From assembly GCA_012026935.1 (NCBI GenBank), contig VEPI01000022.1, positions 1 through 34,896 of the forward strand: a stretch of DNA of 34,896 nt, read 5' to 3'. Within the stretch, counting starts at the first letter, position 1. Each line of letters starts with the position of its first letter. The translations under genes were made by a program, and so were the position numbers. This DNA is from Melioribacter sp. Its GTDB lineage: Bacteria > Bacteroidota > Ignavibacteria > Ignavibacteriales > Melioribacteraceae. Below the pieces are notes generated by a model that was not told the origin of the DNA, did not search any database, and saw only the letters and a program-made list of their open reading frames with translations. Shown here piece by piece: positions 33,223 to 33,414 of the stretch.

Positions 33223-33414
33223 GCATAACGGTGTTGCAACTAAAGCGCCGCTCATAATTACAATGATGCGTTTGGCAACTACCTTTTTTGTTTTAAACTC
33301 AGATTTATTTTTCAAATCAACTTTGAGCAACAAACTTATTCTGAAAAACTAAACCCAACTACCACATCAAACGACTTCGTCAAAGACGCGGTCGCTTTGA
33401 GTTGCGTGTTAGGT
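33223..33414 (-). mobile_element. attC-like recombination site (candidate integron cassette 3' end)
   Basis: Minus strand: ACCTAAC (matches RYYYAAC) ... GTTATGC (near GTTRRRY). Arms CAACT-C-AAAGCG-A-CCGC and GCGG-CGCTTT-AGTTG pair with two bulged bases on one arm. Starts at the stop codon of the ApeA-like ORF. Confidence 0.6.

Follow-up and report, generated by a model that had tools for sequence, protein, structure and literature searches.

A 192-nt hairpin in the genome of a Melioribacter sp. is most probably (about 85%) the attC site of a single cassette that carries an ApeA-type gene and is inserted at an attI site, with this attI being an orphan platform on which an integrase encoded at another locus would act in trans. 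The window analysed here is the whole of contig C93 of this 3.18-Mb genome (G000), 34,896 bases in length, and the order of elements on its minus strand is attI, open reading frame (ORF), attC. Integron integrases bind the folded bottom strand of attC, cut it at 5'-G^TT in the R' box and join it to attI. In the window, an integrase would fold and bind the bottom (plus) strand of the attC site, cut at G^TT in its R' box and recombine the cut site with the double-stranded attI, and a promoter ahead of attI would express the first cassette. The integrase serving this attI, in the past or at present, would be encoded elsewhere.

A long attC site with a family in relatives

The original prediction described a long attC-like hairpin with a single extra C and a single extra A in only one arm, and its sequence, coordinates and both arms proved exact to the base. 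The site has the following parts.

33223..33414, minus strand in cassette sense (the recombining bottom strand is the plus strand): attC site, 192 nt
33408..33414, minus strand: R'' box ACCTAAC, which fits RYYYAAC and overlaps the stop codon of the ORF
33393..33405, minus strand: L'' box, including the extra C at 33399
33392..33392, minus strand: second extrahelical base, the extra A (T on the plus strand)
33236..33247, minus strand: L' box CGCTTTAGTTGC, whose pairing with L'' is kept by compensatory changes
33223..33229, minus strand: R' box G^TTATGC with the crossover point, placed by sequence and junction statistics

The L'' arm reads GCAACT-C-AAAGCG-A-CCGC and both extra bases lie on the R''/L'' arm only, leaving an extrahelical G and T on the plus (bottom) strand. 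The R'' box is an exact match to RYYYAAC, and the current R' box (GTTATGC) departs from GTTRRRY at one position. The last six bases of this R' are downstream DNA, and the cassette's own R', found upstream, is GTTAGGT, an exact GTTRRRY.

Both single strands were folded, as proposed for the hairpin, and the arms were compared with shuffled sequence. Using DNA parameters, the minimum free energy structure of the exact 192 nt on the plus strand (-25.0 kcal/mol) had the arms paired with precisely two single-base bulges, whereas the minus strand favoured an alternative fold (-27.8 versus -23.8 with the arms forced). The complementarity of the arms was equalled in just 1 of 2000 dinucleotide shuffles. 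Folding energy over 203 nt gave z-scores of -1.8 (plus strand) and -2.9 (minus strand), modest values that reflect a long, AT-rich terminal part. The arm pairing was not seen in the unconstrained fold of these 203 nt and was seen after trimming to the exact 192 nt. Folding energy by itself is weak evidence for the hairpin, and the comparative data are decisive. Scanning the window for Rfam families and tRNAs returned no matches.

The 203-nt region was searched against 96 related genomes, which yielded full-length copies with up to 89% identity and many others matching at the two ends only. Alignment of the copies breaks off abruptly beyond the 192 nt. Among 60 copies, with lengths of 168 to 230 nt, the 21 arm pairs were 92.6% paired, compared to ~35% after a one-base slide, and there were 143 cells with changes on both sides of a pair (43 +/- 6 in shuffles). 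The extra C was kept in 59 and the extra A in 57 of these 60 copies, and the TAAC core of R'' was invariant across the family. Copies are arranged in tandem arrays with ~1 kb spacing (about 15 attC sites in G001:C1 and 13 in G059:C31), and the long-attC family builds such cassette arrays in Melioribacteraceae/Ignavibacteriales. Within its own genome a strict sibling pattern matched the window copy alone. The expectation of copies elsewhere was borne out in relatives, which have many full copies, whereas in the genome itself no further full copy was found beside two truncated siblings (on C133 and C4).

On sequence grounds the 192-nt element is a canonical integron attC site, showing every defining feature that can be tested at that level, because it combines the R''/R' consensus, L''/L' covariation, conserved one-sided extrahelical bases and a cassette ORF with a split-R' junction (see below), sibling sites in tandem arrays and integron integrases in the clade. 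The attC-like reading is upheld by the same features. The further suggestion that its length might mark a divergent class holds for the long terminal structure and the clade-wide family of ~190 nt, and does not hold for the rest of the site, which has ordinary attC architecture. The prediction stopped at the hairpin and did not take in the more unusual attI at the contig end, with its intI-less relatives. The modest z-scores would suit some other inverted repeat with no integron connection, such as a REP element or a terminator, but this reading is effectively refuted by the array siblings, the split-R' signature, the covariation and the conserved one-sided bulges.

The bottom strand of the Vibrio cholerae VCR has the extrahelical bases G16, T20 and T24 (PMC2727003). 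The window attC resembles the VCR in the order of its R and L boxes, in having extrahelical G and T confined to the bottom strand, in its long terminal structure, and in belonging to a near-uniform sequence family inside the clade. The window attC differs in its length of ~190 nt with a loop sequence of its own, and in having two extrahelical bases rather than the three of VCR.

Small arrays often end in an attC that keeps R''-L'' and has lost L'-R', a truncation that would fix the last cassette in place (G000:C4:7238-7285, G000:C133:1130-1280, G004:C13:10350-10396, L153, L150, and L155). Some attC loops contain small palindromic inserts, such as CCGCTAAGAGCGG (L150:4009-4231, L049:466-675, and L038:6382-6611 and 9944-10172), and the terminal structure therefore seems to tolerate insertion of other repeats.

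Cassette limits and cargo gene

33229..34806, minus strand: integrated gene cassette, crossover to crossover; GTTAGGTTAC on the upstream side is the 10-base complement of GTAACCTAAC on the R'' side
33414..34796, minus strand: cassette ORF, 460 aa, ApeA-type HEPN protein (PADLOC PDC-S58) with the RX4H motif RNYYTH

Because integration splits the R' box, a cassette's R'' is expected to complement the crossover on its upstream side rather than the R' behind it. Over 60 cassettes, agreement at the six variable positions of R'' was 5.2 of 6 with the upstream crossover, 2.7 of 6 with the downstream R' and 2.2 of 6 when partners were shuffled; for the window R'' the upstream figure was 6 of 6 and the downstream figure 3 of 6. 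This excess of upstream over downstream agreement is the signature of integrated cassettes. The ten-base complementarity of GTTAGGTTAC and GTAACCTAAC, with the complete upstream match, therefore fixes the limits of the cassette at 33229-34806. The window has one full attC site and falls outside the definition of a CALIN, which takes at least two attC sites with no adjacent intI.

The domains ApeA_NTD1 and HEPN_Apea together span the whole cassette protein, which has full-length matches to PADLOC PDC-S58 as well as matches to Cas13-ApeA HEPN, and the cassette gene is likely to encode an anti-phage, ApeA-type HEPN defence protein. It shares both ApeA domains and the RX4H HEPN motif with the ApeA/PADLOC PDC-S58 candidate defence proteins and, unlike them, is carried as an integron cassette. 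A search by sequence for a relative with a solved structure found none, and a scan of the genome collection with the protein gave no matches. Single members of a set of 90 clade cassette proteins match TIR effectors, AbiV HEPN and several PADLOC phage-defence candidates. Defence cassettes have been recorded previously (summarised in PMC12444791).

Tandem genes for serine hydrolases with a beta-lactamase fold (30576-31712 and 31785-32972, with 85% identical DNA) adjoin the cassette. An orthologous empty site was sought by means of this gene pair, and the matches in G007 and in G004, a Melioribacter MAG of the same genus recognised by 100% integrase identity, were not syntenic.

The attI site and the integrase gene

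34807..34896, minus strand: attI site, truncated upstream where the contig stops, recognised by homology to the region 3' of intI and to orphan attI copies
34807..34822, minus strand: attI core GCAGTATAAGTAATAG, preceding the crossover
34840..34877, minus strand: conserved attI palindrome, with covariation across 27 attI copies

In relatives, the counterpart of the contig's final 90 bases lies directly 3' of intI, and the match ends in ATGCAGTATAAGTAATAG^TTA. At 14 loci the attI homologue is found on the strand of intI, 127-195 nt beyond the point where the intI homology stops, and cassettes start exactly at the GTT crossover of attI. Across the clade intI, attI and cassettes are codirectional, and two loci, G018 and G023, depart from this layout. 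In the palindrome, 9 pairs had changes on both sides versus 3.2 in shuffles. The palindrome loop (e.g., ACTGCAT or GCACCG) is complementary to bases before the core (ATGCAGT or CGGTGC, respectively) in attI copies including that of the window (34807-34877). The loop and the pre-core bases appear to change together between lineages, and are perhaps repeated integrase-binding sites.

Cassettes are known to enter non-classical genomic sites, attG, according to Loot et al. 2024 as cited in PMC11023631, and the downstream flank of the window cassette is ordinary chromosome, as an insertion of that kind would have it. The match to attI upstream would then be incidental, which is highly improbable given 84 aligned bases that are 92.9% identical to C133 and a 21-base attI core with zero mismatches.

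No intI was found within the window. Integron integrases scoring above the NCBI TIGR02249 cut-off were detected in 18 of the 28 relatives examined. Of the genuine intI in the Melioribacter sp. genome, 47 residues remain, encoded where contig C16 begins (G000:C16:1-141), and the 3' side is missing. This fragment is syntenic with the integron of G004, whose intI is 85% identical to it. The window could accordingly be read as the ordinary integron of this genome, with the attI at the contig end lying at the 3' end of intI, the rest of intI falling in the gap between C16 and C93, and an array of one cassette. The break in intI at the edge of C16 is consistent with this, as is the codirectional layout of the clade, under which C16 and C93 could join in the right orientation. 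However, the window attI is 92.9% identical to the attI of C133 in the same genome, which is clearly without intI, and 86% identical over 70 bp to an orphan attI of G004, whereas its match to the intI-linked attI of G004 is 19 bp alone, despite the 85% identity of the G004 intI to the C16 fragment. Similarity to the C133 and orphan G004 sites and distance from the intI-linked site favour an orphan platform over an intI-side site for the window attI, of which the contig holds 90 bases; we consider the ordinary integron unlikely.

N-terminal intI fragments of 46-47 residues occur at G026:C6:5-142, G026:C5:292751-292888 and G000:C16:1-141. Those in C6 and C16 sit at contig edges, in assemblies without a full clade-type intI, which suggests that the remainder of intI may be repeated and hence unassembled in the fragment-bearing assemblies. 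The Melioribacter sp. genome also encodes an IntI-family protein on C8 (G000:C8:2413-3390, L011; TIGR02249 score of 332 bits, above the cut-off). This was rejected as the integrase of the genome, having ~46% identity to the clade integrases and a lambda-type portal gene adjacent to it, and is probably a phage integrase that is an integron-type recombinase.

attI sites away from integrase genes

Sites matching attI with no intact intI within 3 kb, mostly with a cassette behind them, were identified in G004:C13 and G000:C133. There are three orphan attI sites beside one intI-linked site in G001. G055 and G045 have several, and G007, a near-complete sister genome (eight contigs, 99% completeness) in which no integron integrase was found, has about six. 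The attI pattern allowed three mismatches, for which the background is zero to two per genome; the weakest single orphan copies are uncertain, and matches with zero or one mismatch much less so. Orphan sites agreed with the R'' of their first cassette at 5 or 6 of 6 bases in 12 of 13 cases.

The orphan sites of G016:C6 and G055 keep the last codons of intI, and the G016 orphan shares 97% identity with the intI-linked attI of that genome, suggesting that some orphans arose when an intI-attI unit was copied or decayed. Since attI copies within one genome are often mutual nearest relatives, the attI platform appears to spread within genomes. Orphan attI sites could also be fossils, copied along with cassettes. 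In G010, the counterpart of the orphan attI locus of G004 lacks a gene, the leader (described below) and the array together, and no clean insertion boundary was seen. Tentatively, and with the odds somewhat against it, we propose a distributed integron, in which one Melioribacteraceae integrase acts on several scattered attI platforms, some with a promoter of their own, and the platform spreads within genomes. If so, several cassettes would simultaneously occupy a first, expressed position.

Integrons are described with one attI, adjoining intI. The 'inverted' chromosomal integrons of Treponema (PMC3607928) have codirectional intI, attI and cassettes, as in the clade of the window, but in this clade attI is also found away from intI. 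CALINs, such as the dispersed arrays of Xanthomonas (PMC12444791), are likewise chromosomal cassettes without intI that are possibly mobilised in trans, whereas the intI-less arrays of the clade have a recognisable attI at their start. In the Delta-attI-type cassettes of class 1 integrons (PMC12901181) attI sequence again lies outside its intI-linked position, but there an attI fragment replaces attC at the cassette end, and in the clade attI precedes the array. Earlier work records integrons in Ignavibacteriae and Chlorobi (PMC9024848), integrases codirectional with their cassettes (PMC3607928), dispersed CALINs as well as mobilisation in trans (PMC12444791), and cassettes that carry attI fragments (PMC12901181). 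Descriptions of attI beyond class 1 are poor (PMC9024848). No report of attI platforms repeated along a chromosome was found among open-access papers.

The window attC enlarges a known class by a long, clade-wide family, in a phylum that has received little study and with a candidate defence gene in its cassette. It is the orphan attI platforms that are new, and they outweigh the attC in importance. Because the clade has recognisable attI sites spread over many chromosomal positions, it can be used to test whether an integrase acts in trans on several docking sites, and whether an integron thereby holds more than one cassette in the expressed first position. The conserved palindrome and covarying repeats of attI are a natural data set on how the integrase reads attI.

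The orphan attI sites of G004:C13, G007:C8 and G000:C133 are preceded by a repeated leader of ~100 bp (leader repeats at L041:8790-8890, L048:5350-5450, L172:497-601 and L149:2249-2345). The G004 leader contains a match, TTGACA-N17-TAAGTTTG, that we take to be a putative Bacteroidota-type promoter. There are 7 or more copies of the leader repeat in G004, and it precedes ordinary genes as well as some orphan attI sites.
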